Part shown: in pieces, positions 29,914 through 47,523 of the stretch | How the letters are laid out: each line of letters opens with the position of its first letter | Position numbering within the stretch: position 1 is the stretch's first letter | NCBI GenBank assembly: GCA_947630705.1 | Contig: CANRIK010000002.1 | Location: 1 to 64,000 of the forward strand | Reading direction: 5' to 3' | Source of the DNA: an uncultured Clostridia bacterium | Lineage (GTDB): Bacteria > Bacillota > Clostridia > Christensenellales > Borkfalkiaceae | DNA length: 64,000 nt | Notes under the pieces: generated by a model | Told to the model about the DNA's origin: nothing | Seen by the model: the letters and a program-made list of their open reading frames with translations, nothing else | Databases searched by the model: none | Translations under genes and position numbers: made by a program

Positions 29914-29954
29914 TTTGTTCTCGTAATACTTGTAAATCTTGTTTCACCTCCTTT

Positions 29955-29991
29955 TGAGGGCAGAAAAAACAGCCCTTTGTTCAAGGACTGT
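29955..29991 (-). terminator. Terminator of the island-2 regulator gene
   Basis: Hairpin ACAG.CCTT-gaac-AAGG.CTGT (29969-29991) followed on minus by TTTTTTCTG. Confidence 0.7.
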
Positions 29992-30067
29992 CTTTATGTG
30001 TATAGTTTTCCCTCCATATATAAGCCACGGAAACGCCGAAATTATTAGTCATTACGAAAAAATTTTT

Positions 30068-31090: not shown

Positions 31091-31096
31091 GGCATT

Positions 31097-31105
31097 ATTA
31101 TAACA
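31097..31105 (-). promoter_or_regulatory. Extended -10 promoter of the island-2 regulator (leaderless)
   Basis: Minus-strand TGTTATAAT followed by AATGCC and the ATG; preceded by TGTC and T-rich sequence as in island 1 (18165-18187). Confidence 0.65.
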
Positions 31106-31223
31106 AATAAACCTGACATAAATCGGCATATATTAAAAATTTTTTGGACAAATTTTGAACTAAAATTCTTATTTTTCTTATGCAACAAAAGTGGGCATTT
31201 TTTTGATGCCTAAGCAGGATAAG

Positions 31224-31293
31224 GAAGGTGGTATTTCTCGCCACCTTCGCCCACTTCCGCGCATGCTCACAAAAACAAGTCGGAAACCGACTT
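31224..31293. other. Two hairpins in the intergenic region before the Dnd-like operon
   Basis: GAAGGTGG-N9-CCACCTTC (31224-31248) and AAGTCGG-AAA-CCGACTT (31277-31293); on minus the second is followed by GTTTTT and could act as a terminator. A 75-codon frame here (31191-31418) has no supporting features and is not called. The 31091-31542 gap otherwise holds the two promoters. Confidence 0.5.
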
Positions 31294-31376
31294 TCGTATA
31301 TATCATTATGATATTGCTTATGTTAAGCATTATCCAAAAACTTTATGTTGCAGCTCATAAATTGTCGATTATTGTA

Positions 31377-31405
31377 TTGCTTTACTTCGATGATTGTAGT
31401 ATAAT
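31377..31405 (+). promoter_or_regulatory. Promoter of the Dnd-like operon
   Basis: -35 TTGCTT (31377-31382), 17-bp spacer, -10 TATAAT (31400-31405), giving a 5' leader of about 130 nt before the first gene. Confidence 0.7.
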
Positions 31406-31542
31406 TTATTTTGAGTAATTGTTATCATTAGATAGCATTTAGAGTTTAACAGTACAGTAATATATTCAGTTCAATCGCTTCTCTATTCGGAAACGAAACA
31501 AATTAGAACATTAAATAGATTGCCATTATTTCTAAGGTTATT

Positions 31543-33273
31543 ATGTGGTGTAAAAATTGCAAAAAAATTGTATACGGCAACATATGTGATACTTGCGGTC
31601 AGCAAGCTGTTGAAGAGTCCCCTGTTGAATTATTCTGGTGCTCTAATTGTCGTATCCCTATAATTACAAATAGCGACACACTGCTTAGAGAAAACTGTCC
31701 TATTTGCAGCGGGAAAATAAAATATCTCGCTAAGGATTTGCGCCCTGTGTTTCCGGAAGAAAGACTTCTTTTAGAGGTGTTGGAAAATAAGCCTTTAGGA
31801 TTTATTGATGAGTCTATTTGGGCAGCAGGGAGCAGGTATTATGTTGATGGTAAGCCTATAAATTTGAGTATTGATAAGATTAAAAAGTTAGATATTGATG
31901 ATCTTATTGAAACCTTGAACAAATATAAATACAAAAACTCATATGAGTTTTTTAATGTTAATATAAAACTCTTTATTGAAGCAAACAAGGAACGTCTTCA
32001 ATTCATTAAAGACGAAGCTTTTAGCTTTGTAAAAGAGCAAGTACAAAAATTTTTTGACCACGAGATAGTAATTTCGTTTTCGGGAGGGAAAGATTCAACG
32101 GTTGTAGCCGATATTGTAACTCGGGCATTATCAAATCCGTCGCTTGTTCATATTTTTGGCGACACTACGTTGGAGTTCCCTACGACATATGAATATATAA
32201 CGAGATTCCGCCAGAATAATCCTAAAACTATACTTAAAATTGCCAAAAATAGGGAACAGGATTTTTATTCTGTCTGCGAAGAAATTGGGCCTCCAGCCAG
32301 AATGCTGCGTTGGTGCTGCACTATGTTTAAAACAGGTCCCATAACGCGCATTCTAAATTCTCTTTTCCGTGATAAAAAGGTATTGACTTTCTATGGAATA
32401 AGGAAAGGAGAATCGGTATCAAGAAGTAAATATGATCGCGTAGCAAATGGTGCTAATGTCAAAATACAGAAACAAACCGTAGCTGCCCCAATATTTAATT
32501 GGGGAGATATAGATGTGTGGCTATATCTGCTTGGTGAAGAAGTTGATTTTAACGATGCTTATAGATTAGGTTATGACAGAGTAGGTTGTTGGTGCTGTCC
32601 CAACAACACTATTCGCGCGCAACTTTTATCAAAAGTATATATGCCGGAAAAGTCTAAAAAATGGCGCGACTACTTGATTGAGTTTGCAAAATCTATAGGC
32701 AAACAAGATGCGGAAGCTTATGTTGACGACGGGAATTGGAAGGCAAGGCAAGGCGGAAATGGTTTGGCTGCGGCAGAGGACGTAAAGATTAAATTTACTA
32801 ATTGCACAGCAGAGGAACACGCTAAAATATATAAGATAAATAGACCACTCTCTGACGAATTCTTGAATTTGTTTATTCCATTTGGTAAAGTTAGCAAAGA
32901 ATTAGGCAGGAAGCTATTAAACGAAACGCTCGTATTAGATTTATCGACTAATGTCCCCATACTTTCTATACAACCCATGAAAAGCGACTCGTATGATTTT
33001 GCAGTAAAGATAAAAACGCTCAATGTTGCTGACCATGAAGCGCTACAAAGAATGGCATCTTATCAGGTACGAAAATTCAATGCTTGTCGCAAGTGTTTGA
33101 AATGTGAATCAGTTTGTCCATTCGGTGCGATTAGTGTTACAGCATTAGAATATAAAATTGATCCAAATAAATGCAAACGTTGTAAAAAATGTGTCACTAA
33201 CAAATATCTTTCAGGTGGATGCCTTATGGACAGATTCTTAAAGTCAAAGGACGGAGAAACATATGAAAATTAG
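31543..33273 (+). CDS. PAPS-reductase-family protein, DndC-like, with zinc ribbon and ferredoxin domains
   Basis: 576 residues. N-terminal zinc-ribbon pair: C-K-N-C ... C-D-T-C (3-18) and C-S-N-C ... C-P-I-C (33-55). PP-loop ATPase/PAPS-reductase domain (about 160-400) with S-F-S-G-G-K-D-S-T, R-W-C-C-T-M-F-K and a later G-C-W-C-C-P-N-N. C-terminal ferredoxin-like domain (about 515-565): C-x-x-C-x-x-C-x-x-x-C-P and C-x-x-C-x-x-C. DndC activates the DNA backbone by adenylation before sulfur insertion; the same chemistry is proposed here. Canonical DndC lacks the N-terminal ribbons and the full C-terminal ferredoxin, so this is a variant. First gene of a plus-strand operon; overlaps the next by 11 bp. 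Confidence 0.8.
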   Translation: MWCKNCKKIVYGNICDTCGQQAVEESPVELFWCSNCRIPIITNSDTLLRENCPICSGKIKYLAKDLRPVFPEERLLLEVLENKPLGFIDESIWAAGSRYYVDGKPINLSIDKIKKLDIDDLIETLNKYKYKNSYEFFNVNIKLFIEANKERLQFIKDEAFSFVKEQVQKFFDHEIVISFSGGKDSTVVADIVTRALSNPSLVHIFGDTTLEFPTTYEYITRFRQNNPKTILKIAKNREQDFYSVCEEIGPPARMLRWCCTMFKTGPITRILNSLFRDKKVLTFYGIRKGESVSRSKYDRVANGANVKIQKQTVAAPIFNWGDIDVWLYLLGEEVDFNDAYRLGYDRVGCWCCPNNTIRAQLLSKVYMPEKSKKWRDYLIEFAKSIGKQDAEAYVDDGNWKARQGGNGLAAAEDVKIKFTNCTAEEHAKIYKINRPLSDEFLNLFIPFGKVSKELGRKLLNETLVLDLSTNVPILSIQPMKSDSYDFAVKIKTLNVADHEALQRMASYQVRKFNACRKCLKCESVCPFGAISVTALEYKIDPNKCKRCKKCVTNKYLSGGCLMDRFLKSKDGETYEN

Positions 33274-34126
33274 AGCGCATGAAACTTTTAATCTTAGAAA
33301 AGGATGGCTTCGCAAAGGCATAAAAAATATATTAAACGACCCTACTCTATTTACAAATAAAAATATTAACCCTTGCAATCAACTCGGAATAGGGACGAAT
33401 ATGGTTAAATCTCTCCGCTATTGGCTGATTGCTACGGGCATAACCGAAGAAACTATCGATAATAACAAGCATATCCAAAAGCTTACAGAATTAGGCATTC
33501 TAATAAATAACTACGATAAATATTTTGAGGAAGATGGAACGCAATGGCTAATCCAGTATAAGCTGGCTACTAATAAGGAAAACGCAACTGCGTGGTATTG
33601 GTTTTTTAATGAATTTGATGTTCAAGAATTTGATAAAGAATTGTTTGTTAAAGAACTTGAAGAATATCTTGAAACGGAAGGATTTAGTAGCTCCACAAAA
33701 ATGCTTTCAGATGAGTATGCATGCTTATTAAACACATATTATTCTAAAGAAAAAGAAGAAGATCCGGAAGAAACAAACAGTTGCCCGTTGACTTCATTAA
33801 AACTGATAAAGAAATCTGAAGGTGGTGCTTACAGAAAAAATGTCCCCGATAGAGATAGTATCCCTCCGCTTATAGTTTTAGCAATTATTGTTGCTGAAAA
33901 CAGTGGCAACGAAATAAACATATCGGAGCTGATAGACAAGCCAAATTCTATTACTAAGGTGTTTAATTTGGATAGAAGCACATTATTTTATTTGCTTGAA
34001 ACTCTTGTCAAGATGGATATGATAACTATGCCTAGAACCGCAGGATTAGATGTAGTAAAATTTAATTGTGACTATACTTTTGATGGATTAGTCGAAAAAT
34101 ATTATGAATCTTTGAATGGTAAATAA
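33263..34126 (+). CDS. DUF4007 family protein
   Basis: 287 residues: K-I-R-A-H-E-T-F-N-L-R-K-G-W-L-R-K-G (start), L-G-I-G-T-N-M-V-K-S-L-R-Y-W (near 43-57) and, near the C-terminus, P-P-L-I-V-L-A-I-I-V then a winged-helix-like R-S-T-L-F-Y-L-L-E-T-L. These are the signatures of DUF4007, a family repeatedly found beside PAPS-reductase-like genes in DNA-modification/defence loci. Probably a DNA-binding or adaptor subunit. ATG follows GGACGGAGAA; overlaps both neighbours. Confidence 0.75.
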   Translation: MKIRAHETFNLRKGWLRKGIKNILNDPTLFTNKNINPCNQLGIGTNMVKSLRYWLIATGITEETIDNNKHIQKLTELGILINNYDKYFEEDGTQWLIQYKLATNKENATAWYWFFNEFDVQEFDKELFVKELEEYLETEGFSSSTKMLSDEYACLLNTYYSKEKEEDPEETNSCPLTSLKLIKKSEGGAYRKNVPDRDSIPPLIVLAIIVAENSGNEINISELIDKPNSITKVFNLDRSTLFYLLETLVKMDMITMPRTAGLDVVKFNCDYTFDGLVEKYYESLNGK

Positions 34127-37100
34127 AATGGGTACACTTAGTAAAATAGTTCAGCCTGTAGGCGGATTTCAATATTCGGTAAATATCTACTATGATATTA
34201 ACGATGATAATAAAATCAAAAGCTATGTCCCTTCAAGTAGTTCTCTTCAAATAATTGAAGATGTTTTACTGAGCACTGAAAATAGTTCAGCAGATAGGGC
34301 TAGAATACTAACGGGAGCTTATGGTAAAGGCAAATCGCATTTAATTTTGACTATTGCCGCTTTACTTTCGGGAAGAGATAGCACCTTGTTTTCAAATATA
34401 TTGGACAAGGCTAAACAAACAAATGACGTATTGTATCGAAACCTTTTAAGATATCTTGAAAGCAAAAAAAAGCTACTACCCATTATTATTAATGCGGACA
34501 GCTTAGATATAAAAGCTGTTTTATTACATAGTTTAAACGAATCTCTTAGACGTGCCAATCTTGCGAAGTTTATGCCTACCACATTTTTTGATGCCGCTGT
34601 TGAGAAAATTCAATCATGGGAACAAGATTTCCCTAATACATACAATCAATTTGAAACAGCTATAGGGCAACCCGTTGAACAATTTATACAGGACTTAAAG
34701 GTATTTAATCAAAAGACTTATGATAGGTTTATAAAACTCTATCCCACACTTACCTCCGGAAGTGAATTTAATCCTGTACTTGGTACAAACGTAATTAACA
34801 TTTTTGAACGTGTTGCTAAAGAATTGCATTCGGTAGGATATAATGGTATTTTTATTGTTTATGACGAGTTTGGCAAATACCTAGAAAGCATATCCGGCAG
34901 AGCGGCTGCTCAAGACACTCAATTCCTACAAAATTTAGTTGAAGCATGTGCGCGGAGCAAGGAAAATCAATTACATGTACTGCTGGTTTCACATAAAAAC
35001 ATAGAGAACTATTTAGGAGGAATTTCCAAGAAAAATATAAGTAGTTGGAGAGCAATTTCGGGTAGATTTAAGCCTCTCAGCTTAAATAATAGCGATAAAG
35101 AAATTTATGATATGGTCGCTACCATCCTAAATAAAAATCCTTCTGAATATGAAAGGTTTATTGAAAGAAATCAGAGCGAATTTGCAAGATTACGCAAAAC
35201 AGTTGATAAATATCGTGCATTTGATAAGATAAGAGGCTCAATTGCTGATGATTTGGCGCAGTCTTGCTATCCCCTGCACCCCTACTCTTTGTTGTTATTA
35301 CCCAAAATTTCAGAACTTATTGCGCAAAATGAGCGTACTATTTTTACTTTTCTTTCTTCAAATGAAAGAAATACCGTTCCTTATTTTTTACGTAAAGACG
35401 ACAGCAGATTCCCTCTTATTGAGCCCGACTATATTTATGATTATTTTGAAAAATTAATAAAAAGCGAACCTTATGGAAGCAATATTAAAAAGCAATGGCA
35501 GATAGCTGACACAGCACTTGCAAAGATAAAAGAATGGGATAATGAACTTGCAGAAAAAATAATAAAAACGATAGCACTTATCTACTGCGTAAACGAGTTT
35601 GAGGTGATTCCGCCCAGTTGGGATATAATAGATGATATCTATAGTGTAAATTATAGACCGACAGAAATAAATGCCGCTAAGGAATTATTGAAAACTAATA
35701 ATATTTTAATAGAACTATTGTATAAACCCCATGTCAGGCTTACTGAAGGCAGTGGGCATAACGTGGTTGACCTTATCAAACAAGAATCATATAAAATCAA
35801 AAGCAAAATAGATTGTAAAAATGTACTTGCAGATATTTCGAGTACAAAGTATTTCTATCCCGTTGAATACAATGATGAAAACGAAATTATAAGGTATTTT
35901 GAGCTTAAATTTATTACTTATAATGAGTTGTTATCTTTAGATGCCAACATTGCAGACATTGACTCATCTGCCGACGGAATTGTTTTTGCAGTGTACTTGA
36001 GGGAATCGGAAGATAAAGATATGGTAGTTGATAAAATAACCCAAATAACAAATCCACGGATTATCTTTATTCTTCCGAATAAAAAGTTAGACCTTGATGA
36101 ACGTTTAATAGAATATGCGGCAATTCAAGATTTAATTGGTATTTACAGCGGTAAAGAAGTTGCTCTTGTTGACGAATTGGTTTATATCGAAGAAGATAGA
36201 TATAAACTTCTTGCTAACTTTATTGATTCTTATTATTTGCAACCCGAATGTGGGCTCTCTGAGTATTATAATGAAGGTAAGCCTATTTCAATAAACAGAA
36301 AGTCCCAATTTTCCAAATTGCTTTCTAACATAATGGATAGGACATATTATCAAACGCCGATAATCATTAACGATCTAATTAATAAGAATAATATTAGCCC
36401 TACTATTAGGAATGCAAGGCAGAAGATAATATCCGGATTGCTACTTGGCAATTATAAAAAAAATTTGGGCATCATCGGATACGGACCTGAAATAAATATT
36501 CTTAATGCAGTTCTCGTAGCACCGAAGTTATTTATCAATGAAGATGATGCGAAGTTGTCTATTGTTGGAGTTGATGAAAAGGTAGTAAATGTGCTAATTA
36601 CAATAAAAGACTTCATTATTAGCACAACTGACAGAAAAAAGTCCCTTGGTATTTTATATAATAAACTCACGAGTGCGGAATATGGTTATGGATTAAAAAA
36701 AGGTGTAGTCGCCATCTATTTGGCGGTTGCTATTGTGGTATGGTTTAAGGATCATATCGTTATTACTAAAAAAGATAGAGAGATACCTCTAAATGCAGCT
36801 CTTTTCAATGAAATAGACATAGCACCCGATTCCTACTATATGTTGCTTGAAAGTTGGGATGCAAGTAAAGATGCATATATTTCAAATCTCGAAAGCACTT
36901 TCTATCAATACATAAATAATGAAGATAAAATAGGCGGCTCATTTGTGTATGTAGTAAAAGCTATGCGCCGTTGGTATTTGCAACTTTCAAAGTTTGAATG
37001 TGTAACAAAATTTGCTTGCGATAATGACGGAAAAATCGAGGAACTTACAAAAACAACACTTAAATTCCGTAGCCTCTTAAATAACCCTGACATTAATGCG

Positions 37101-37739
37101 CATGAGTTACTCTTTGAAACGCTATTCAAATGTTTCAATACCCAAGACCCCACACAAGTTATTGTTGGAGTCAGACAAGCATATAAAGAGCTTGACGGAA
37201 ATCTTTTAAATTATAAGCGATATATTTTAAGTATAATAGCAAAACTGTTTAGGGCTACGGACGGGACAAGCATAACTTCATCAATGGCAAATTATTACGA
37301 TGATTTAAACCAAGCTACAAAAGAGCACTCATTCAGCGGGAAATATAGCGCGTTTTTAAATATTGCAAAGAATCCCAACAACGACGAACTTAAGCTTGTA
37401 GAAGATATAGCGCGTGCGATTTGCAATTTGCGTATAGGCGATTTTACCGACGAAATAATGTCGGGATTTATTGAAGATTTAAATTTAATAAAGCAAGAAA
37501 TTGATGAATATAACGAAAATGCAAAAAATGGTGCTATTTCTTCTGAAGGATATAAAATAAGTTATGTTGATGGCGACGGCAATGAAGTAGTTAAACAATT
37601 TGATACCGCAGATGTCACCAAACCCCAGAGCCAATACTTTTATAATGACATATTGAGTATTTTTGAAGAATTTGGCGATTCTCTGACAATAGATGAAAAG
37701 AGGCAGGTATTATTTAACCTGCTTAAGGATTTGATATAA
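34116..37739 (+). CDS. Large P-loop ATPase of the Dnd-like operon
   Basis: 1,207 residues. Walker A is G-A-Y-G-K-G-K-S-H (about residue 68), which resembles the G-x-Y-G-x-G-K-T/S-H motif of BrxC/DUF499-type defence ATPases; Walker B-like I-F-I-V-Y-D-E-F-G-K near 248. The remainder is helical with no domain I can name. In the operon it may load or power the modification or restriction machinery. Translation can start at 34116 or at ATG 34128; neither has a good ribosome site, so coupling to the upstream gene (10-bp overlap) is likely. Ends TAATG with the next gene. Confidence 0.7.
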   Translation: MVNKMGTLSKIVQPVGGFQYSVNIYYDINDDNKIKSYVPSSSSLQIIEDVLLSTENSSADRARILTGAYGKGKSHLILTIAALLSGRDSTLFSNILDKAKQTNDVLYRNLLRYLESKKKLLPIIINADSLDIKAVLLHSLNESLRRANLAKFMPTTFFDAAVEKIQSWEQDFPNTYNQFETAIGQPVEQFIQDLKVFNQKTYDRFIKLYPTLTSGSEFNPVLGTNVINIFERVAKELHSVGYNGIFIVYDEFGKYLESISGRAAAQDTQFLQNLVEACARSKENQLHVLLVSHKNIENYLGGISKKNISSWRAISGRFKPLSLNNSDKEIYDMVATILNKNPSEYERFIERNQSEFARLRKTVDKYRAFDKIRGSIADDLAQSCYPLHPYSLLLLPKISELIAQNERTIFTFLSSNERNTVPYFLRKDDSRFPLIEPDYIYDYFEKLIKSEPYGSNIKKQWQIADTALAKIKEWDNELAEKIIKTIALIYCVNEFEVIPPSWDIIDDIYSVNYRPTEINAAKELLKTNNILIELLYKPHVRLTEGSGHNVVDLIKQESYKIKSKIDCKNVLADISSTKYFYPVEYNDENEIIRYFELKFITYNELLSLDANIADIDSSADGIVFAVYLRESEDKDMVVDKITQITNPRIIFILPNKKLDLDERLIEYAAIQDLIGIYSGKEVALVDELVYIEEDRYKLLANFIDSYYLQPECGLSEYYNEGKPISINRKSQFSKLLSNIMDRTYYQTPIIINDLINKNNISPTIRNARQKIISGLLLGNYKKNLGIIGYGPEINILNAVLVAPKLFINEDDAKLSIVGVDEKVVNVLITIKDFIISTTDRKKSLGILYNKLTSAEYGYGLKKGVVAIYLAVAIVVWFKDHIVITKKDREIPLNAALFNEIDIAPDSYYMLLESWDASKDAYISNLESTFYQYINNEDKIGGSFVYVVKAMRRWYLQLSKFECVTKFACDNDGKIEELTKTTLKFRSLLNNPDINAHELLFETLFKCFNTQDPTQVIVGVRQAYKELDGNLLNYKRYILSIIAKLFRATDGTSITSSMANYYDDLNQATKEHSFSGKYSAFLNIAKNPNNDELKLVEDIARAICNLRIGDFTDEIMSGFIEDLNLIKQEIDEYNENAKNGAISSEGYKISYVDGDGNEVVKQFDTADVTKPQSQYFYNDILSIFEEFGDSLTIDEKRQVLFNLLKDLI

Positions 37740-38887
37740 TGTTACAGCTTGGATATTTTGACAATGCGGCAACCACATTAAAAAAAGTGCCGGGGTTATA
37801 TGAATATATCGCTCAGTACATGAATGATTATGGACTGAATTCAGGCAGAGGTGAATACGGCGCAGTTCGTTCAACAGGTAAAATGGTTAATGATACTCGC
37901 CATTTACTATTAAATCTGGTACATGCCGATACAAAAAAAGAGGTGGTTTTTTGCCCCTCTGCAACGATAGCAATCAATACCATTATTCGTGGTATAGATA
38001 TTTCGGCAGGTGATAATGTATATATCTCTCACTTTGAACATAATGCGGTTGTCCGTGTATTGCACAATATCCAAAAAGAAGTCAAATTTAATCTCGAATA
38101 TCTTACTTTAGACTCATCTTCCTTAGAATATAATGAGCGCGCCATAAAAGCACAGTTTGCGGCTAAAAAGCCTAAAGCGATAATCGTCTCTCAAGTGAGC
38201 AATGTTTGTGGATTAGTACAGCCCATAGAGATGCTTTTTAAAATAGCTAAAGAGTATAAGGCAATAACTATTGCAGATGCCGCACAAGCTTGTGGCGTTA
38301 TAGATACTTCTCTTGAGAATATCGATTATTATGTGTTTGCCGGGCATAAAACTCTTTATGCCCCTTTTGGAGCAGCAGGCTTTATTTGTAACAAAACTTC
38401 AACTTTAAAGGCTTTTATTTATGGCGGAACGGGCATAGATTCGGCTAATATAGAAATGCCTAATACAATTCCCGAAAGGTTTGAAGCCGGTAGTTTGAAT
38501 ACAATGGCTATTGCCGGACTAAATTATTCTTTAAAATGGATTCTTGAAAAAGGCATTCAATGTATAAGGGGAAAAGAAATTGAAAATTATAATCGGCTTA
38601 AAGAAATATTATCAACATATGATTTTATTTCTTTAGTAGGAATATGCGAAAGCACATCCGCCATTATATCTTGTAAGTTTAAAGGATATGCCCCCGACGA
38701 AATCGGCGGAGTATTAGACAGGTTGGGCATATCGGTCAGGACAGGTCTACACTGTGCCCCTATTGCCCATAAATTTTTAAATACATTTCCTGAGGGAACG
38801 GTAAGATTCAGTATCAGTTATTTTACCGAACTAAATGATTTTGACAGACTAAAAGAAACATTGGATACTATTGAGGAACAAATGTAG
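37739..38887 (+). CDS. Cysteine desulfurase (class V aminotransferase), DndA-like
   Basis: 382 residues. Y-F-D-N-A-A-T-T at the N-terminus, I-A-D-A-A-Q-A-C-G (PLP-binding Asp near 180), A-G-H-K-T-L-Y (PLP Lys near 204), and R-T-G-L-H-C-A-P (catalytic Cys near 337) are all present. It mobilises sulfur from cysteine, presumably for the PAPS-reductase-like enzyme of the same operon, as DndA does in DNA phosphorothioation. It could also be a generic SufS-type enzyme captured by the island; operon position (1-bp overlap upstream, 8 bp before the helicase) favours the Dnd-like role. Confidence 0.85.
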   Translation: MLQLGYFDNAATTLKKVPGLYEYIAQYMNDYGLNSGRGEYGAVRSTGKMVNDTRHLLLNLVHADTKKEVVFCPSATIAINTIIRGIDISAGDNVYISHFEHNAVVRVLHNIQKEVKFNLEYLTLDSSSLEYNERAIKAQFAAKKPKAIIVSQVSNVCGLVQPIEMLFKIAKEYKAITIADAAQACGVIDTSLENIDYYVFAGHKTLYAPFGAAGFICNKTSTLKAFIYGGTGIDSANIEMPNTIPERFEAGSLNTMAIAGLNYSLKWILEKGIQCIRGKEIENYNRLKEILSTYDFISLVGICESTSAIISCKFKGYAPDEIGGVLDRLGISVRTGLHCAPIAHKFLNTFPEGTVRFSISYFTELNDFDRLKETLDTIEEQM

Positions 38888-38895
38888 GTGATGAA

Positions 38896-41046
38896 ATGGC
38901 ATTATCTGAACTTGACATAAAAAAGGAATATCGAAATCTTCAATGTGACGTAGTCAAAGATTTTTACATCCCTGTCCTTAAAAAGGCAATCGTATATAAA
39001 AGAGCTGTTGGCTTTTTTTGCTCCTCTGCTTTATACGAAATTGCCACAGGACTTGAACAATTAGTTTTTAATAACGGCCATATATCACTAATTGTTTCCC
39101 CCAAACTTAACGAGGAAGACATTGCCGCCATTCAACTTGGTTATAAAAGACGAGAAGAAATAGTTTCCGATGCAATCCTTCGTGAATTTGAAGCACCCTA
39201 TAATAGAAGGCAGATATTAAAATTAAATCTCTTATCTGAACTTATAGCTAAAAATATACTTGATATAAAAGTTGCATTTAAAGCAGATGGGAGCGAAGTC
39301 GGCATTTTTCACGAAAAGATAGGTTTGGTTGCTGATACTGATGGCAATAAAGTTGCATTTACCGGATCGATGAATGAAACTTATTCCGGTTTACTTTTAA
39401 ATTATGAATCCATAGATGTTTATTGTTCCTGGAAAGATGAAGATACTGAAAGGGTTGCAATAAAGGAAGCGGCCTTTGACAACCTTTGGAATAATGCGGA
39501 TGATGCATTAACGGTAATAGATTTTCCGGAAGTTGCCGTTGAGAAACTCAATACATATAGACAATTATCAATTTCTGAGATATATGAAAATGATCATCTG
39601 ACTGAAATTGAAGACAAAGAAACTCATTTCTTTGCAAAACCCGAAAATATAAATTTCTTTGATTATCAACTTGAAGCTATAGAAAATTGGCAACGACAAA
39701 ATTTTAGAGGGATTTTTGATATGGCGACAGGTACAGGTAAAACCTATACCGCTCTTGGAGCCTTGTGCCAACTCACAAAGGTATGTAACGGAAAACTCGC
39801 TGTTGTAATAATTTGTCCATATCAACACCTTGTTGAACAATGGGTTGAAGATATCAACTTGTTTGGTGTCACTCCTCTTATATGTTATTCTAAATATGAT
39901 TGGAAGAAAAAGCTTAAAAGACTAGTTGAAGCATACAATCTTGAAGTTGAAGATAATTTTTGCATTATCACAACTAACGCTACTTTTATTTTGAAAGATA
40001 TGCAAAATGAGCTTTTGAAATTAGATGGGAATGCATGCTTAGTAGTAGATGAGGCGCACAACTTCGGCTCAAGAAGACAAATTGCTTGCATGAGTGAAGT
40101 ATTTAATTATCGACTTGCGTTGTCCGCAACTTTAGAGCGGCATCATGATGAGTATGGTACACAGAAACTGTATGAATACTTCGGTGAAAAATGTATTGAA
40201 TATTCCCTTAAACGCGCCATTGAAGAAGGTAAACTTACACCGTACTACTATTATCCGATTCCCGTGTCGCTTCTGCAAGATGAATTAGACTATTATATAG
40301 AATTAACTGATAAAGTTGTTAATATATTACGCAAATCAGGACCGCTTTCAAATATTGATGATATGCCCGAGTCGGCAAAACGCATTTTAATTGAGCGCGC
40401 AAGAATTATCGCAGGCGCTCGAAACAAACTCGGAGCCTTACAAGAAGCAATGATGCCTTACAAGCAAAGTAAGCATTTATTGGTATATTGCGGTGCAACT
40501 CATGTTGATCCTTTGAGTAATGACGATACAGATGAAATCACATCTTCTGAAACAAGACAAATAGATGAGGTAACAACCATCTTAGGGAAAAAGCTTGGCA
40601 TGACGGTTACTCAATTTACCTCTAAAGAGGATAGCGGAACACGAGAAACTATTAAAAAACGATACATAGAAGAAAAGATACAAGCGCTTGTCGCAATAAA
40701 ATGTTTGGATGAAGGAATGAATATCCCCGGAATTGAAACGGCGTTTATATTGGCAAGCAGCACTAATCCAAAAGAATATATACAACGACGGGGTAGAGTT
40801 TTAAGGAAAGCACCCAATAAGCAATTTGCCAGAATTTATGACTTTATAACGCTGCCGCGTTCACTTGATGAAAACTCTCCGCCATATGCAATACAGGCAG
40901 AACTTTCATTGATAAATCGTGAGGTTGAGCGCATGAATGATTTTATGTCACTAGCAGAAAATCCCAGTGAAACTACTAAATTAATTAACAAAATAACTGA
41001 AAAATACAACTTATACTATTTAGGAGAAGATTATGGACGAATATAA
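38896..41046 (+). CDS. DEAD/DEAH helicase with N-terminal PLD-like domain
   Basis: 716 residues. N-terminal 1-200 resembles the phospholipase-D nuclease fold (A-V-G-F-F-C-S-S-A-L-Y near 35-45; G-I-F-H-E-K-I-G-L near 137 in place of H-x-K; T-G-S-M-N-E-T). Helicase core from about 253: Q motif F-F-D-Y-Q-L-E-A, motif I M-A-T-G-T-G-K-T, II V-D-E-A-H, III L-S-A-T, then motifs IV-VI (L-D-E-G-M-N-I-P-G; Y-I-Q-R-R-G-R-V-L). PLD-helicase fusions are typical restriction effectors. The HKD motif reads H-E-K with no second copy seen, so nuclease activity is uncertain. Stop overlaps the next gene by 14 bp. Confidence 0.8.
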   Translation: MALSELDIKKEYRNLQCDVVKDFYIPVLKKAIVYKRAVGFFCSSALYEIATGLEQLVFNNGHISLIVSPKLNEEDIAAIQLGYKRREEIVSDAILREFEAPYNRRQILKLNLLSELIAKNILDIKVAFKADGSEVGIFHEKIGLVADTDGNKVAFTGSMNETYSGLLLNYESIDVYCSWKDEDTERVAIKEAAFDNLWNNADDALTVIDFPEVAVEKLNTYRQLSISEIYENDHLTEIEDKETHFFAKPENINFFDYQLEAIENWQRQNFRGIFDMATGTGKTYTALGALCQLTKVCNGKLAVVIICPYQHLVEQWVEDINLFGVTPLICYSKYDWKKKLKRLVEAYNLEVEDNFCIITTNATFILKDMQNELLKLDGNACLVVDEAHNFGSRRQIACMSEVFNYRLALSATLERHHDEYGTQKLYEYFGEKCIEYSLKRAIEEGKLTPYYYYPIPVSLLQDELDYYIELTDKVVNILRKSGPLSNIDDMPESAKRILIERARIIAGARNKLGALQEAMMPYKQSKHLLVYCGATHVDPLSNDDTDEITSSETRQIDEVTTILGKKLGMTVTQFTSKEDSGTRETIKKRYIEEKIQALVAIKCLDEGMNIPGIETAFILASSTNPKEYIQRRGRVLRKAPNKQFARIYDFITLPRSLDENSPPYAIQAELSLINREVERMNDFMSLAENPSETTKLINKITEKYNLYYLGEDYGRI

Positions 41047-41209
41047 TAAGGCACTCGAAACCCTTGACGAAGTAACGCTTCGTAGGATAAGAATGAAAGT
41101 ATTTACCCTTGAGAAGCATAATCGTGCTACGCAGGAATATTCTGAATCTCAAATGGTTGATAAAATCAGGAAGATTATAGATGAATGCGTTAAGGAGATA
41201 AAAAGATGA
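41033..41209 (+). CDS. 58-residue small protein in the Dnd-like operon
   Basis: Short gene between the helicase and the DndD-like gene: ATG 41033 preceded by TAGGAGAAG, stop TGA at 41207-41209. It overlaps the helicase stop by 14 bp and the next start by 4 bp (ATGA), so it is translationally coupled on both sides. The product is acidic/basic and helical (L-E-T-L-D-E-V-T-L-R-R-I-R-M-K, then V-D-K-I-R-K-I-I-D-E). No family recognised. DndE is a small protein in canonical systems, but I see no sequence support for that identity. Confidence 0.75.
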   Translation: MDEYNKALETLDEVTLRRIRMKVFTLEKHNRATQEYSESQMVDKIRKIIDECVKEIKR

Positions 41210-43215
41210 TTTTTAAATCGATTATGTTAAATAATTTTAGACAATATCGCGGCGAAAATATCATAAACTTTTCAACTGACCCCGTGCGCAATGTTACTGT
41301 TGTATTAGGCGTAAACACAAGTGGGAAGACCACTCTTGTCCAGTCTTTTTTATGGTGTTTATATGGGATTTCTTCGTTCAAAACAAAGGAAATCCTTAAT
41401 TCGGAACTATCGAATTCATTAACGCCAAATACTGAGGTGAAAGCAACTGTTAAAATCGTGCTTGTCCATGACGGGAAGGAATATACAATAGAGCGCAGTC
41501 AGACTTTTACAAAAGATTCATATGACTCATTGAGGTCTTCTCAATCGAAGCTTACTATTTGTTATAAAGATGATATTGGCAATACTCAATGGGTTTCAGA
41601 TTCGGAAAAGGCTAAAACGGAAGTAATAAATAGTATTTTATCAAAAGATTTATCTGACTACTTCTTCTTTGACGGCGAACGCATCGAAGAGATTAGTGAT
41701 AAGAAAAACGTTGTGGAAGCTGTTCGTGGATTGATGGGCATAGATATTTTAGGGTCTGCAATTGACCATTTGGATCCAAAAACTTCGAGGACTAATTCCG
41801 TTGTCGGAAAATTAAGAAGAGAACTTGACATTGGAAGCGATAATCGGGGCGCCGAACTTACAAGAAAGCAGGAAGCTTTAACTAATAAATTGCAGGGATA
41901 TGAGGCAAGGCTAGAAACTGTTAAAAGTGAAATAGAAACGTTCAAGGCTGAACGCGAAAAGTATCAAAAGTTATTATTAGATACTAAAGAGGTCGCCGGC
42001 AAGCAAAAAGAAAGATTACGGATAGAAACTAATATAAAAAATTTGGAATCCAACATAAATATTTTCAGGGCGAGATTGTTAGATGACTTTAACCGCGAAT
42101 ATTTTGCATTCCTTGCAGTCCCTTTAATAAAAAGGGCATTTGATTGCTTGGCTTCAGCAAAAGAAGATCCTCAGGGAATACCAATGATGCATTCCGAATC
42201 GATTGATTACATATTAAACAGAAAAAGATGTATTTGCGGCTGTGATTTATCCAAAAATCAAGGAGCCGTTGATAATATCCTATACGAACGAAAATTATTA
42301 CCTCCTCATCATATCGGTACAGATATTAATACGCTGAAAACATCAGGATTACAATATTGCAAACAAGCTGAAGGAATGGATGACCGTATTATTCAAGATT
42401 ATAAAGAAATAGTACGATTGACAAGAAACTTGGATGATGTACGTGAGGATTTAAAACATGTTAGCGAAGAAATAAAAAATCTAGGTGAAGTCAATGTAAG
42501 AAAGATAGAGGATGATTATCAGGCTAATGAAAGACTTTTGGATGGTAAAATTAGTCTTCGTGGAAGCATAGAAAGAGATATTTCCGAAACCAAACGTCAA
42601 ATAGATGATTGCGTTCGTGAATTGAGTGGATTAGCAGTTAAAAATGATAAGAATGATTTGATAAGATTGGAAATCAAATATGCTGAAGCTGTATACTATT
42701 GGTTTAAAGATACCTATGACCAACTTGAACATGAAGTGCGCGACCAACTTACTGAAAGCATAAATCGCATCTTTAAACAGATGTATCACGGCTCTAGGAA
42801 GGTTGAAGTTGATTCAAATTATCGTATCAGATTAAAAACCGATATTGGAGAAAAAGAAATAACGACCGATGAATCAAAGGGTCTTGAAGCTGTCAAGAAC
42901 TTCTCGTTTATTAGTGGACTCGTTGATTTAGCTAGAAGTAAAGCGCGGCAGACTGAAAATGACGATGTGTCGATTTCTACTGAACCTTATCCTATAGTAA
43001 TGGATGCACCGTTTTCAAACGTTGACGAAATTCACATAGGAAATATTTCCACCATACTGCCTGAAACAGCAGAACAAGTAATTTTAATCGTTATGAAAAA
43101 AGACTGGGAATATGCAAGAGAAAAAATGATAGACAAGGTTGGCGCAAGCTATATTATTGAAAAAGTAAACAACTCTGAAACGTTCTCAAAAATCAGGAGG
43201 AATGAAGATGTTTGA
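41206..43215 (+). CDS. DndD-like SMC/Rad50-type ATPase
   Basis: 669 residues. N-terminal F-K-S-I-M-L-N-N-F-R-Q-Y-R-G and Walker A V-L-G-V-N-T-S-G-K-T-T; two coiled-coil arms (about 225-290 and 395-490) flank a central C-I-C-G-C segment (about 344) that looks like a zinc hook; the C-terminal half has the ABC-type E-T-E-I region, T-D-E-S-K-G-L (near 555) and Walker B P-I-V-M-D-A-P-F (about 600). This is the DndD/RecN-like layout. DndD is proposed to nick or open DNA for sulfur insertion. ATG overlaps the 58-aa gene by 4 bp. Confidence 0.8.
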   Translation: MIFKSIMLNNFRQYRGENIINFSTDPVRNVTVVLGVNTSGKTTLVQSFLWCLYGISSFKTKEILNSELSNSLTPNTEVKATVKIVLVHDGKEYTIERSQTFTKDSYDSLRSSQSKLTICYKDDIGNTQWVSDSEKAKTEVINSILSKDLSDYFFFDGERIEEISDKKNVVEAVRGLMGIDILGSAIDHLDPKTSRTNSVVGKLRRELDIGSDNRGAELTRKQEALTNKLQGYEARLETVKSEIETFKAEREKYQKLLLDTKEVAGKQKERLRIETNIKNLESNINIFRARLLDDFNREYFAFLAVPLIKRAFDCLASAKEDPQGIPMMHSESIDYILNRKRCICGCDLSKNQGAVDNILYERKLLPPHHIGTDINTLKTSGLQYCKQAEGMDDRIIQDYKEIVRLTRNLDDVREDLKHVSEEIKNLGEVNVRKIEDDYQANERLLDGKISLRGSIERDISETKRQIDDCVRELSGLAVKNDKNDLIRLEIKYAEAVYYWFKDTYDQLEHEVRDQLTESINRIFKQMYHGSRKVEVDSNYRIRLKTDIGEKEITTDESKGLEAVKNFSFISGLVDLARSKARQTENDDVSISTEPYPIVMDAPFSNVDEIHIGNISTILPETAEQVILIVMKKDWEYAREKMIDKVGASYIIEKVNNSETFSKIRRNEDV

Positions 43216-43705
43216 TAATGACATTAAAATTACAGGTAAGCATGCTAGGTATTTAAAGTTTCTTGCTAAAAAGAGTACCGAATTAAAAAAAGATGCAAAA
43301 TCAGCAGAAATATTTAAACGCTATATTGACGTATATATGGCAGGAATAATAGTCGGTGATGTAAAAAACAGGAAATCCGATATTGATAATTCTATTGACG
43401 ATTCGGCAAACATATTGGCGTCAGCCGTAATAGGCGAACAGGACAGATTAAAGTTTTTATATCGCTTGGTATTATTAACGGACAACCCTTCCTCTACATC
43501 TGTTGAAGATAGAATTGATAATGCCTTTAGATATGACGGAGATGCGGCTAAATTAAAAGAGGGAATGGCTATATTAAATTCCTATGCAAGAGGCGGCATC
43601 GAATGGCTATACGAAAAATTTAATGACGGTGTAACTACGCAGGAAGATTATTATAGAATTGTATATGAGCTGACTAAAGAATACAGCGAAGATTATTATT
43701 GTTAA
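43208..43705 (+). CDS. Conserved-looking 165-residue protein of the Dnd-like operon
   Basis: From ATG 43208 (AGGAGG 6-7 nt upstream; the ATG two codons earlier sits too close to the SD). Helical, charged; I-T-G-K-H-A-R-Y-L-K-F-L-A-K near the N-terminus, then F-K-R-Y-I-D-V-Y-M-A-G-I-I-V-G and F-L-Y-R-L-V-L-L. It occupies the place of a DndE-like partner after DndD, but it is longer than DndE and I cannot recognise the family. Overlaps the dndD-like stop by 8 bp, so probably a stoichiometric partner. Confidence 0.65.
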   Translation: MFDNDIKITGKHARYLKFLAKKSTELKKDAKSAEIFKRYIDVYMAGIIVGDVKNRKSDIDNSIDDSANILASAVIGEQDRLKFLYRLVLLTDNPSSTSVEDRIDNAFRYDGDAAKLKEGMAILNSYARGGIEWLYEKFNDGVTTQEDYYRIVYELTKEYSEDYYC

Positions 43706-43741
43706 ACCATATCAGTTCACAGATACATTTAAGAAAAGGCC

Positions 43742-44263
43742 ATGGAAGATTTAATTCAAGATTTACGAAATAAAAAATTTCAAATCGAGTTGCCATCGCA
43801 TTTATGGAGAACATTTGATCCCAATATTTTAAAGGTTTTACAGACGAAGCAATGGAATACGTTTAAATATTTTACATCGTATGGGATTATAAATAATGCT
43901 ATTTCCTCTGTTAATAATAAAAAAGGTGGAATTTACATATTTTATGTTGACCCGCAGATCATTCCTGAAAGGCAACGCATTTTAATGTATGTGGGAGAAG
44001 CGCAATTAACCGCTAATCAAAATCTGCGAAAAAGGATAAGCGAATATAAAAATTATTTACCGCCTGATTATAGTCGCCCCAAAATCAGCACTATGTTACA
44101 ACAATGGTGGGAAGATTTGTACTGCAGTTATATAGAGCTGGACGACAATGAGCTGATAATGCAAATTGAAACGGAACTTATTAATAAATTGATTTTACCG
44201 TTTAACGATAAAATACCAGATAAAAAAATTGGTTTTGCAGTCAAAGCTGCCGGATTGCAATAA
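43742..44263 (+). CDS. GIY-YIG-type endonuclease
   Basis: 173 residues. G-G-I-Y-I-F-Y-V (about 61-68) and M-Y-V-G-E-A (about 82-87) are the GIY and YIG strands; L-R-K-R-I-S-E-Y supplies the Arg; E-T-E-L-I-N-K near 150 gives the metal-binding Glu; F-N-D follows. The nuclease fold appears complete. In a modification operon it is the best candidate for a restriction nuclease, perhaps sensing the absence or presence of sulfur; this is inference. GGCC(ATG) with AAGAAAAGG upstream; starts 36 bp after the preceding gene. Confidence 0.75.
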   Translation: MEDLIQDLRNKKFQIELPSHLWRTFDPNILKVLQTKQWNTFKYFTSYGIINNAISSVNNKKGGIYIFYVDPQIIPERQRILMYVGEAQLTANQNLRKRISEYKNYLPPDYSRPKISTMLQQWWEDLYCSYIELDDNELIMQIETELINKLILPFNDKIPDKKIGFAVKAAGLQ

Positions 44264-44278
44264 AGAGAGGAATTTATT

Positions 44279-45556
44279 ATGAAGAAATTATCGCTAAGAG
44301 AAAAATCAGGGGATTGGATATACTATTTAACCAGTTTTACTTATAAAGAAGTAAAAGAAAACGTAAAACGCGTCGATGATGAATTGCATAAATCAAAGTC
44401 TTTAAATGAGTTGATACAGAGAAGTCTTACTGATAATGTTAATAGCATCGCTCGATATATTGAGAACCAAAAGGAACATTTTTTCAACGCGTTAGTTTTA
44501 GCTGTTTATGATGGCGATCCCCAATGGAGAGAAATTGAGTTAAATTACGGCGACGGTGAAAAATATGAAATGGGGATATTAGAGTTATCTGGCGAAGAAA
44601 AAATATTTCCTGTAGATGGCCAACATAGAGTTGAAGGGATAAAACAAGTTTTAGCTGGTGAAAAAGGCCCGAACTATGAAGATGAAACTATACCTGTTAT
44701 TTTAATTGGACATAAAAACACCGCCATCGGCATGCAAAGAACAAGACGTTTGTTCAGCACGTTGAATAGATATGCCAAACCCGTAAGTTTAAATGATATT
44801 ATAGCCCTTGATGAAGACGACATTGTTGCGATCGTTACTAGACATTTAATAGAAAATTGTGAACTGTTTAAAGAGAAAAGGCTTAATAATCATAAACAGA
44901 AAGCAATACCCGAAAAAGATAAAACCGCGTTTACCAACATTATATCATTATATGAATGCAATACAGAGTTGCTTAAATATTTTATTAAAGATAAAGAAGT
45001 ATCAATAGATAACAAATTATTAAAAGGGAAACGGAAAATCGAAGAATATTGCAGAAAAAGACCCCCAGATGAAGATATCACAAAATTTATAAATTTTGTT
45101 GATGATTATTGGGCAAACTTTTCTAGTAAAATTACTCCCATCAAGGAATATTTATTCAAAGACGTAGACGAAGCCCCCGTATCAAGTTTCAGAAATAAGG
45201 AAGGCGGCAATCTAATATTTCGTCCAATAGGGCAAAGACCATTTGTGCTGTGTGCATTAAGTTTATATGAAATATATAAAGATTTCGAACAAGTAATGGC
45301 TAAAATGGATTTAGTAAATTATGATTTGACTAATGAAGTATGGAAGTTTATTGCATGGAACCCTATAAGCAAGAAAATGATTGCCTCATCTAATGGGAAA
45401 CTTATAGAATTGATGCTAAAATATTTTGTTGGGGTAGAACTAAGCCTCAAAGAATATGGTGCTATGATAGATTCTTATATAGAAATGAAAGGCAATGAAG
45501 AATTAACACCTCAAATGGCGCAAGATGAATTGATTAAATATAAAATTAACAATTAG
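44279..45556 (+). CDS. DGQHR-domain protein, DndB-like
   Basis: 425 residues. P-V-D-G-Q-H-R-V-E-G (about 117-126) is the DGQHR motif; Q-R-T-R-R-L-F-S-T-L-N-R-Y-A-K (about 158-172) and P-V-S-L-N-D follow as in DndB/DGQHR proteins. DndB regulates dnd transcription and affects modification frequency in known systems. Strong AGAGAGG before ATG, 15 bp after the GIY-YIG gene. Last gene of the operon; no terminator is evident in 45557-45657. Confidence 0.75.
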   Translation: MKKLSLREKSGDWIYYLTSFTYKEVKENVKRVDDELHKSKSLNELIQRSLTDNVNSIARYIENQKEHFFNALVLAVYDGDPQWREIELNYGDGEKYEMGILELSGEEKIFPVDGQHRVEGIKQVLAGEKGPNYEDETIPVILIGHKNTAIGMQRTRRLFSTLNRYAKPVSLNDIIALDEDDIVAIVTRHLIENCELFKEKRLNNHKQKAIPEKDKTAFTNIISLYECNTELLKYFIKDKEVSIDNKLLKGKRKIEEYCRKRPPDEDITKFINFVDDYWANFSSKITPIKEYLFKDVDEAPVSSFRNKEGGNLIFRPIGQRPFVLCALSLYEIYKDFEQVMAKMDLVNYDLTNEVWKFIAWNPISKKMIASSNGKLIELMLKYFVGVELSLKEYGAMIDSYIEMKGNEELTPQMAQDELIKYKINN

Positions 45557-45715: not shown

Positions 45716-46627
45716 ATGTTTTCCTATGCAGGACTTTCGGAAATTTTAAAGAAAAACGGGCTGAAAAAGTCAGATTTGACGGCAAAAGCCGGCATATCTT
45801 CGCGCACGATTGCCAAGATTTCAAAGGGTGAAAAGATTGCCGACAACGTCATAAACAGGCTATGTAAATTTTTCGGCTGTAAAAGCGGGGATATTTGCCG
45901 AGAGATAAGCGACAACCCCGTTTTGCAGGTGTTGCGCGACGAAAAGGGTGCAAAAATAAGCGGCGGGCTGTATCACGAAACGCAGATTCGCCTGACGTAC
46001 AACTCCAACCGCATTGAGGGCAGCCGCCTTTCCGAGGACCAAACACGTTTGATATTCGAAACAAACACGATAGGCGCAGAGGAAGGCGTGCCCGTGGACG
46101 ACGTCATCGAAACCGCCAACCACTTCCGCGCGGTGGACTACGTGATAGACTGCGCCGAACAACCCCTCACCGAAGACATCATCAAAACTCTGCATAAAAT
46201 TTTAAAGACGGGCACGAAGGATTCATACCTCGCCTGGTTCAACGTCGGAGAGTACAAAAAACGTGCTAACGTGGTAGGCGGAATTGAAACGGTTGCGCCG
46301 TCCAAAGTCGCAGAAAAAATGAAGGAGCTGTTGCAAAACTATAACGGCAAGACGGGAATAAAACTTGAAGACATAGTTGAATTTCACTATAATTTCGAGC
46401 GCATCCACCCCTTTCAGGACGGCAACGGCAGAGTGGGCAGGCTGATATGCTTTAAGGAGTGTTTGCGGCATAAAATTATCCCGTTCATCATTGAGGATAG
46501 AAAGAAAATGTTTTACTACCGCGGTTTGCGTGAATGGGAAAACGAAAGAGTTTATTTGATTGACACCTGCCTCGACGGGCAGGATACCTACAAGGCGTTG
46601 CTGAAGTATTTTGGGGTAGTTGAATAA
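45716..46627 (+). CDS. XRE-Fic protein (HTH domain fused to Fic AMP-transferase)
   Basis: 303 residues. N-terminal XRE HTH (about 15-60: K-S-D-L-T-A-K-A-G-I-S-S-R-T-I-A-K-I). Inhibitory helix S-N-R-I-E-G (about 97-102, the S-x-x-x-E-G motif of self-inhibited Fic proteins). Catalytic loop H-P-F-Q-D-G-N-G-R-V-G-R (about 224-235) is complete. Fic enzymes usually transfer AMP to a protein; with the internal inhibitory helix no separate antitoxin is needed. The HTH and the flanking operator imply self-regulation. GAGAGGTG precedes ATG. Base composition differs from the AT-rich operon before it, so it may have another origin. Confidence 0.88.
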   Translation: MFSYAGLSEILKKNGLKKSDLTAKAGISSRTIAKISKGEKIADNVINRLCKFFGCKSGDICREISDNPVLQVLRDEKGAKISGGLYHETQIRLTYNSNRIEGSRLSEDQTRLIFETNTIGAEEGVPVDDVIETANHFRAVDYVIDCAEQPLTEDIIKTLHKILKTGTKDSYLAWFNVGEYKKRANVVGGIETVAPSKVAEKMKELLQNYNGKTGIKLEDIVEFHYNFERIHPFQDGNGRVGRLICFKECLRHKIIPFIIEDRKKMFYYRGLREWENERVYLIDTCLDGQDTYKALLKYFGVVE

Positions 46628-46857: not shown

Positions 46858-46912
46858 CTTAAAATCCCTCGGACGAGAGTCCGTATCGGTTCAAGTCCGA
46901 TCACAAGCACCA
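46858..46912 (+). pseudogene. 3' half of tRNA-Leu(UAA) no. 1, split by island 2
   Basis: Begins at core CTTAAAA; continues with anticodon stem TCCCT, variable arm CGGACGAGAGTCCG, T-arm ATCGG-TTCAAGT-CCGAT and CACAAGC-ACCA, which pairs with the 5' half at 26751-26789. The sequence before the core is not tRNA, so the gene is not restored here. Confidence 0.92.
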
Positions 46913-46917
46913 AAAGG

Positions 46918-47340: not shown

Positions 47341-47523
47341 GTGGCAAACGATTTCATAACGGCCAGTCAAGCCGCAAAAAAATGGAATATTTCTCAACGC
47401 CGCGTGCAGATCCTCTGCGCGACCGGTCGGATAGACGGCGTTTTCAAACTGGGCGAAAACTGGGCTATACCCAAAAACACGGAAAAACCGCACGACGCGC
47501 GCAGAAAACAGGAGATAATCTAA
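47341..47523 (+). CDS. Small HTH (MerR/excisionase-like fold) protein of the RM locus
   Basis: 60 residues: I-T-A-S-Q-A-A-K-K-W-N-I-S-Q-R-R-V-Q (about 6-23) is a winged-HTH of the MerR/HTH_17 kind; G-R-I-D-G-V-F-K-L-G-E-N-W-A-I-P is the wing found in such small DNA-binding proteins. GTG start with GGCGGAGG 7 nt upstream. Stop overlaps the methyltransferase start by one base (TAATG), so it is co-translated and may act as a controller of the RM genes. Confidence 0.7.
   Translation: MANDFITASQAAKKWNISQRRVQILCATGRIDGVFKLGENWAIPKNTEKPHDARRKQEII

Follow-up and report, generated by a model that had tools for sequence, protein, structure and literature searches.

A Probable Hybrid Phosphorothioation Defence Operon Joining Ssp-Type and Pbe Genes in an Uncultured Clostridia Bacterium

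Known Systems and the Ten-Gene Operon

Ssp modification places phosphorothioate (PT) in a single strand of DNA, at 5′-CCA in the members studied. The locus analyzed here consists of ten genes at positions 31543–45556 of a 64,000-nucleotide stretch from an uncultured Clostridia bacterium (contig CANRIK010000002.1; the whole stretch is called the window). It seems to join a modification module of this kind to a separate set of restriction genes, PbeABCD. In PMC8092258, 2,211 of 2,678 sspBCD loci are without sspE and sspFGH (83.9% as printed; 82.6% by division), and the authors proposed additional restriction partners for sspBCD. The Pbe scheme of PMC10853773 is as follows. PbeA is an HKD nuclease with an SF2 helicase, PbeB is a small protein, PbeC is a CxC ABC ATPase, and PbeD is the cognate of DndE. 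PMC7464106 pools dnd and ssp when counting strains with pbeA–D ("MA") and may include unstated Ssp–Pbe cases. No description of an Ssp–Pbe pairing was found in searches of an open-licence library. The pairing looks like an undescribed one that recurs in related bacteria, and to this is narrowed the undescribed system proposed in an earlier note on this DNA. We consider it probable that the operon is a hybrid PT defence system, in which the Ssp genes mark host DNA, the Pbe genes block unmarked DNA, and a GIY-YIG–DndB pair is exchangeable.

The ten open reading frames (ORFs) lie on the + strand, as had been reported, and encode 576, 287, 1207, 382, 716, 58, 669, 167, 173, and 425 residues; the eighth had been given as 166. 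Successive junctions measure −11, −11, −1, +8, −14, −4, −14, +36, and +15 bases, and the gap from gene 10 to the next gene is +159 bases. Such tight junctions are compatible with the ten genes forming one operon. An operon is preferred to a chance arrangement because the same order of genes is seen again elsewhere and because the ratio of nonsynonymous to synonymous change (pN/pS) is low against L003, a related island copy (loci outside the window carry L numbers). The scan for promoters and terminators scarcely exceeded shuffled sequence (75 versus 64.0, standard deviation 6.8, and 11 versus 10.1, standard deviation 2.6). The operon has 35% GC, versus 46% and 49% in its flanks.

PADLOC finds matches for seven of the ten genes, the 58-, 167-, and 173-residue products (genes 6, 8, and 9) having none. 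Above the Pfam cut-offs are PAPS_reduct, DUF4007, Aminotran_5, PLDc_2 with ResIII, DEAD, and Helicase_C, AAA_23 (in the DndD-like gene), and DndB. The domain calls of the earlier note hold, GIY-YIG falling under its Pfam cut-off (E 0.0023). Motif patterns of the families were tried in seven window proteins; only C-x2-C-x2-CG, tried in SspD, and the LSGG-type pattern, tried in PbeC, were missing.

By profile, genes 1–4 form a predicted PT module of the Ssp/BREX-4 type, with the families SspA, SspB, SspC, and SspD all represented. Gene 1 (31543–33273) encodes an SspD/BrxP-type sulfurtransferase that is not fused to DUF4007 (BrxP 1.9e-87, SspD 1.3e-16, PAPS_reduct 7.9e-31); the 576-residue protein has the PP-loop SGGKDS and C-terminal 4Fe-4S cysteines. 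Gene 2 (33263–34126) encodes SspB, a DUF4007 protein (SspB 3.9e-56, PF13182 6.1e-75). Gene 3 (34116–37739) encodes SspC, a BrxC-like ATPase (SspC 8.1e-115, BrxC 1.1e-39) with Walker A GAYGKGKS and Walker B FIVYDEF. Gene 4 (37739–38887) encodes an SspA/DndA-type cysteine desulfurase (SspA 3.9e-30, DndA 2.8e-27; TIGR01977 6.4e-111, 371 bits, under the cut-off of 377) with the motifs GHKT and RTGLHCA.

Genes 5–8 make up a PbeA-B-C-D cassette. Gene 5 (38896–41046) encodes PbeA (4.7e-240; TIGR04095 3.5e-155, 517 bits, under the cut-off of 600), with an HKD (PLD) nuclease and an SF2 helicase, the residues of both being invariant or nearly so across 11 aligned sequences, the window's included. Gene 7 (41206–43215) encodes PbeC, the CxC ABC ATPase (3.1e-114); CxCG is found in 17 of 18 aligned rows, and the remaining row has CACCG. 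PbeA and PbeC together show the HKD, DEAH, Walker, and CxC motifs, and two small genes complete the A-B-C-D order. Gene 6 (41033–41209, 58 residues) has no match above cut-off in PADLOC, Pfam, or further family-profile scans. Position and alignment, rather than a family profile, assign it to PbeB: 12 aligned members, the window's among them, each lie between PbeA and PbeC. Gene 8 (43202–43705) stands in the position of PbeD. It aligns with 15 relatives, and its profile matches a profile of eight PbeD-position proteins from loci without adjacent Ssp (94.9%, E 4.2e-8). The match to dnd_assoc_4 is below cut-off (E 0.0091), and no credible match for PbeD was found in the PDB. It follows from the PbeD homology and the literature that gene 8 is called a DndE cognate. 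The 58-residue gene and the 166-residue unknown of the earlier note correspond to PbeB and PbeD.

That note had read the operon as sulfur modification and defence in which a BrxC-like ATPase is accompanied by nuclease effectors, which is right. It was wrong in calling the operon Dnd-like with odd additions, as the modification half is of the Ssp/BREX-4 type. Profile scores go against Dnd membership: BrxP beats DndC for gene 1 (2.8e-14 for DndC), and PbeC beats DndD for gene 7 (2e-34 for DndD). The putative effectors do include nucleases, but they are mostly the described PbeABCD. DndFGH is absent from the listed matches of the operon proteins, as had been claimed; genome-wide, TIGR03238, which we take to be DndH, gave no match, yet none of the control genomes was positive, and DndF and DndG were not searched. 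The companion statement that no DndE is recognisable holds only in part, since a relative of PbeD, the DndE cognate in the section of PMC10853773 cited above, is present. As had been expected, the set as a whole fits no single named subtype in the profile searches, PADLOC included.

Recurrence and Selection of the Paired Modules

PbeA was searched for with PDLC02704 at E ≤ 1e-60, with an additional search of 13 genomes of the order at E ≤ 1e-100. Matches came from 6 of the 396 genomes drawn from the order and 24 of the 398 drawn from the phylum, plus one from the 13-genome search. These make 30 distinct genomes, the window's included; L002, L003, and L004, the contig of which starts inside PbeA, are left out of the count. 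The neighbourhoods cover about 10 kb on each side where the contig permits and were examined with single-sequence searches, which may overlook Dnd or Ssp genes that have diverged; methylases were not systematically sought.

An Ssp module is adjacent to PbeA in 15 of the 30 (window, L011, L012, L013, L040, L042–L049, L053, and L098). In one more, Ssp lies about 31 kb away on the same contig, separated by insertion sequences (ISs). Two IS copies that are 99.75% identical (L041:7156-8783 and L099:12294-13921) lie there, one following SspA and the other preceding PbeA, and the junctions carry the two halves of one small ORF; L041/L099 is therefore read as an Ssp–Pbe operon split by ISs. A 92-residue ORF in the SspA/PbeA gap of L043 (8618-8896), with no family above cut-off, has its relative halved in the split locus. 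Dnd genes stand beside PbeA in five genomes (L014, L015, L050, L057, and L137; the L050 stretch holds only DndD and DndE), and neither Ssp nor Dnd was found within these neighbourhoods in nine (L051, L052, L054, L055, L056, L058, L059, L101, and L138, the last a 7-kb contig). Leaving the window aside, 14 loci have the modules adjacent, and 9 of these share the order D-B-C-A followed by PbeA, PbeC, and PbeD, L012 having GIY–DndB inserted.

Co-occurrence was judged by BrxP, which is found in 34 of the 398 phylum genomes, 19 of them taken as having a shorter form (E larger than roughly 1e-110, with G680 excluded because its match is two pieces of the long kind). PbeA and the shorter BrxP occur together in 11 genomes. 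Without the window, this is 10 versus 1.04 expected (p 1.6e-9, the related genomes not being independent). Eight phylum genomes have a shorter-BrxP module and no PbeA match (L090–L097). Their Ssp modules keep other company: SspF and SspG (L096), GmrSD (L092), an upstream UvrD-like helicase (L090), or nothing named (L095). A second, weakly scoring SspB/SspC-like pair accompanies the module at L093:10949-16342 and L097:7711-12840. An SF2 helicase, a GHKL ATPase (MzaB-like), and a PLD-family protein lie beside Ssp at L094:1014-5476 (− strand) and L091:3770-7951 (− strand), both genomes of the window's phylum, and at L126:16736-21315 (+ strand), a plasmid of Treponema saccharophilum; this three-gene set is possibly another Ssp effector.

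Beyond these genomes, 139 plasmid records match PbeA, of which seven were examined, one of them unannotated. A Rhizobium plasmid has SspA-B-C-D convergent with PbeC-D-A, a different order; of the others, one has DndBCDE, three have methylases nearby, and one has neither. PbeA relatives were absent from IMG/VR. Four phage-labelled records match PbeA, and the best two, faecal contigs MT835506.1 (L124) and MT835493.1 (L125), have the eight core genes in order. Both are labelled "UNVERIFIED: Bacteriophage sp." No structural PHROG is listed for nine proteins from the two records, and one of the "Bacteriophage sp." records (L129) has two tRNA-Arg genes, so the two records are probably bacterial DNA.

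The PbeA phylogeny largely follows the link to Ssp. In a tree of 27 rows, the 14 Ssp-linked rows and L041 lie behind a branch with 99/95 support, and the Ssp label needs two changes, versus 9.3 under shuffling, where none of 500 was as low. In a tree of 35 rows, with L041 relabelled as Ssp following the IS finding, 17 Ssp rows form a group with 99/99 support that contains no further row. The 18th, from the Rhizobium plasmid, falls outside; the test does not reject a single clade comprising all 18 (p-AU 0.177 on the 35-row tree, with a long-branch warning).

Purifying selection is shown for seven of the eight core genes. Against L003, at 96% DNA identity, pN/pS is 0.05 for PbeA, 0.06 for PbeD, and 0.08, 0.10, 0.13, 0.13, and 0.17 for five others. 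The 58-residue gene has 0 synonymous changes and 1 nonsynonymous change, too few to judge. Against L002 the values range from 0.00 to 0.56, on few changes. Both L003 and L002 retain the eight genes open.

The Accessory Pair and the Island

Genes 9 and 10 are an exchangeable pair, swapped or deleted in near-identical islands. Gene 9 (43742–44263) encodes a putative GIY-YIG-like nuclease. The window and L094 copies are below the Pfam cut-off, and the L012 copy has no match; in all three known copies G63-I64-Y65, Y83, G85, R96, E143, and N155 are invariant, positions that include the presumed catalytic residues. No credible match to the protein was found in the PDB, and no relatives were found in plasmids, phage records, or IMG/VR. 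Gene 10 (44279–45556) encodes a DndB/DGQHR (ParB-like) protein (PF14072 3.3e-30; PADLOC DndB) with DGQHR at residue 113. The GIY family occurs in two of the 398 phylum-draw genomes and in two of the 367 searched from the order, three distinct genomes in all. Each copy directly precedes DndB within an Ssp operon, and the site varies: after PbeD in the window, in the SspA/PbeA gap in L012, and in the SspC/SspA gap in L094, where no PbeA was found. L011 carries DndB without GIY.

L002 and L003 are metagenome-assembled genomes of uncultured Clostridia bacterium, isolates Lapin-012 and Lapin-032, which we read as being of rabbit-gut origin. In L002, a 247-residue protein and an RNase_T-family exonuclease replace GIY–DndB (L002:14849-16184), the island being otherwise 98% identical to the window over 28895–43697. 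L003 has a deletion of window positions 43702–44703, which removes GIY together with the beginning of DndB.

SspE-like genes occupy similar sites elsewhere. Genes with GmrSD_N or GmrSD_C lie beside or within the operons of L042, L047, L048, L049, L053, L098, and L124, and also at L092, which has no adjacent PbeABCD. They follow PbeD in L047, L048, L053, and L124, lie between the modules in L049, and are upstream of the module in L042 and L098. DGQQR is present in six of the eight sequences scanned (L053 was not among them), the exceptions being a cut gene in L042 and a Pfam-less gene in L125. No GmrSD_N was found in the window's genome; the control was positive in 8 of 14 genomes. A 180-residue Ruegeria gene that precedes a DGQHR gene was considered as GIY-YIG and rejected, having no GIY-YIG match and resembling a membrane protein. 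Sigma-70-like homologues (regions 2 and 4, weak 1.1) lie immediately 3′ of PbeD at L011:5683-6852, L041:13854-14954, and L044:13862-14950.

In this gut bacterium the operon is carried on a low-GC mobile island inserted at a tRNA-Leu gene. The left attachment site, attL (27009–27039, + strand), is the 3′ end of tRNA-Leu(TAA) (gene 26954–27039), and 27 of its 31 bases recur in an imperfect copy, attR (46882–46912, + strand). L002 matches the window from 28895 to its stop at 46913, the accessory slot excepted. Left of the operon, on the − strand, are a tyrosine integrase (27152–28381; Phage_int_SAM_3 1.8e-16, Phage_integrase 1e-9), a TnpV-like gene (28697–29155; PF14198 2.1e-13), and a Sigma70_r4-like gene below cut-off (30068–31129; PF04545 9.4e-5, 22.3 bits versus 24.1). 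An HTH-Fic gene at the right end (45716–46627, + strand; Fic 1e-17, HTH_26 7.3e-12) is probably outside the defence system proper. On the left side of the island, a roughly 134-bp direct repeat (97%; 26757–26991) overlaps the 5′ part of tRNA-Leu. Just beyond the island, 47382–50983 holds a C5 methylase, BpuJI recognition, and NO VEIN in one chain, then a second C5 methylase.

Rival Readings and Relation to Known Systems

PT chemistry and defence are predicted from what has been published on these families, and we likewise infer the target motif, the antiviral action, and the roles of PbeB and GIY–DndB. Sulfur drawn by SspA from cysteine would go to SspD, an Fe-S/PP-loop enzyme. Together with SspB, which binds DNA, and SspC, an ATPase, SspD would then insert PT into the backbone of the host's own DNA. 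PbeC and PbeD would scan DNA, and PbeA would stop the replication of unmarked incoming DNA or cut it. The small PbeB may restrain or gate PbeA. DndB and the GIY-YIG protein may be an exchangeable regulator or second-effector pair.

Several results weigh against this hybrid. For gene 1, the BrxP profile outscores SspD (1.9e-87 versus 1.3e-16). PbeC lacks an ABC signature by LS[GK]G, the one pattern tried, and direct profile comparison of PbeD with DndE, of which there were only two sequences, gave no match, so gene 8 was dropped as a DndE by sequence. Gene order or content deviates in 5 of the 14 adjacent loci (L040, L046, L049, L053, and L098), and only seven of the 14 yielded a PbeB. SspA was not seen at L040, L046, L049, or L053; the L040 stretch has the Pbe genes first and ends within SspC. 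L053 has SspB, SspC, and merely a weak SspD-like neighbour (E 2.5e-4), and in L098 PbeA is broken and PbeC and PbeD were not found. SspC does not sort by effector: on a 23-row tree (simpler model, long-branch warnings) the Pbe label needs 7 changes, versus 6.8 in shuffles, 350 of 500 being as low. Co-evolution of the two halves was tested over 12 loci (10 for SspA; L048 PbeC is a fragment, L040 SspC is cut, and L012 SspD is from L100) and not found. Distances correlate within the modules (Ssp 0.71–0.88, Pbe 0.52–0.72) but not between them (over 12 gene pairs, r ran from −0.09 to 0.26 and p was nowhere below 0.051). Correlation with rpoB is 0.47 for PbeA (p 0.006), 0.39 for PbeD (0.033), 0.34 for PbeC (0.013), and 0.32 for SspC (0.027); for SspA, SspB, and SspD, p is not below 0.05. 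These results agree in kind with PMC6459918, where the correlation of DndCD with PbeAC is 0.107. Ssp and Pbe are separately inherited modules, repeatedly joined. Since PbeA groups by Ssp link and SspC does not group by effector, the pairing is uneven: one Pbe branch goes with Ssp, and the Ssp module switches effectors.

Could the Ssp module and the Pbe cassette be two independent systems that merely sit side by side in a defence island? The uncorrelated distances would suit this, as would Ssp modules found with SspF/SspG, GmrSD, or other genes and PbeA found with Dnd, methylases, or neither. Yet the modules meet at a junction of only +8 bases, versus −14 to −1 within them, the D-B-C-A-Pbe order recurs, the co-occurrence exceeds chance, and almost all Ssp-linked PbeA falls in a single clade, so we hold independence to be unlikely. 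Less likely still is a BREX type 4 variant with BrxP, BrxC, DUF4007, and an unusual effector. The best score of SspD is indeed to BrxP, and PMC12839542 treats three BREX-4 components as homologous to SspB/C/D. Against it, PglZ is missing from the window's genome (97% complete; control positive in 4 of 14 genomes), the window's BrxP is not fused to DUF4007, and 14 phylum-draw genomes score BrxP far higher, most over nearly the whole 779-position profile. BrxL was not among the listed matches of the ten operon proteins, and no genome-wide search for it was made. That the ten genes are one indivisible system requiring GIY-YIG and DndB is scarcely credible: the pair shares the strand and has short gaps (+36 and +15), but the near-identical islands replace it (L002) or have lost GIY and part of DndB (L003).

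A further proposal concerns the pair itself. GIY-YIG and DndB may be a two-gene counterpart of SspE, a DGQHR sensor with a separate nuclease, acting as a second PT-gated effector beside Pbe; we regard this as possible but doubtful. SspE is a DUF262 ParB-like DGQQR sensor fused to HNH in PMC13251355, and sspE is termed the DndB equivalent in PMC10853773. GmrSD occupies the sites used by GIY–DndB (after PbeD; between the modules), with DGQQR in six of the eight sequences scanned, and GmrSD_N is absent from the window's genome. On the other side, PMC6459918 and PMC10853773 report DndB to be a negative transcriptional regulator in Dnd systems, L011 has DndB without GIY, and GmrSD is found upstream of the module as well (L042 and L098). 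There are only three GIY–DndB loci; none was seen with both kinds, but the neighbours were not all profile-scanned and the numbers are too small for a statistical comparison.

PbeABCD is a recurrent Ssp partner in the window's phylum. We tentatively suggest, as a rather speculative extension, that a Pbe branch specialised on Ssp-type single-strand marks is the missing effector of many "orphan" Ssp loci, joined here by a split-SspE GIY–DGQHR pair. If so, a single sulfur mark would license Pbe, which acts on unmarked DNA, and at the same time a ParB-like sensor that is activated by PT and has a separate nuclease. The asymmetry predicts that Ssp marks, but not Dnd marks, should license Ssp-clade Pbe. 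The locus supplies ready module pairs for an Ssp/Dnd swap comparison, and the near-identical islands with and without GIY–DndB are a natural experiment on the role of the pair.

The locus compares with described systems as follows. With SspABCD systems (with SspE or SspFGH) it shares the SspA, B, C, and D families by profile. It differs in having an SspD of the longer, BrxP-like, ferredoxin-bearing kind and PbeABCD as effector; its genome has no GmrSD_N of the SspE type, and SspFGH is not among the listed matches of the operon proteins. It shares BrxP, BrxC, and DUF4007 homologues with BREX type 4 (brxPCZL), from which it differs in the lack of PglZ, the unfused BrxP, and the Pbe effector. With the CxC ABC-ATPase systems of PMC10853773 it shares PbeC, accompanied by HKD-SF2, a small protein, and PbeD, whereas the section describing them names Dnd and methylase partners and no Ssp, the partner in the window. 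The haloarchaeal DndCDEA-PbeABCD system, as described in PMC6459918, likewise has a PbeA-B-C-D cassette next to a module for PT modification. In the window, that module is Ssp rather than DndCDE, and the window's PbeA belongs to a supported group to which the Dnd-linked rows do not belong.

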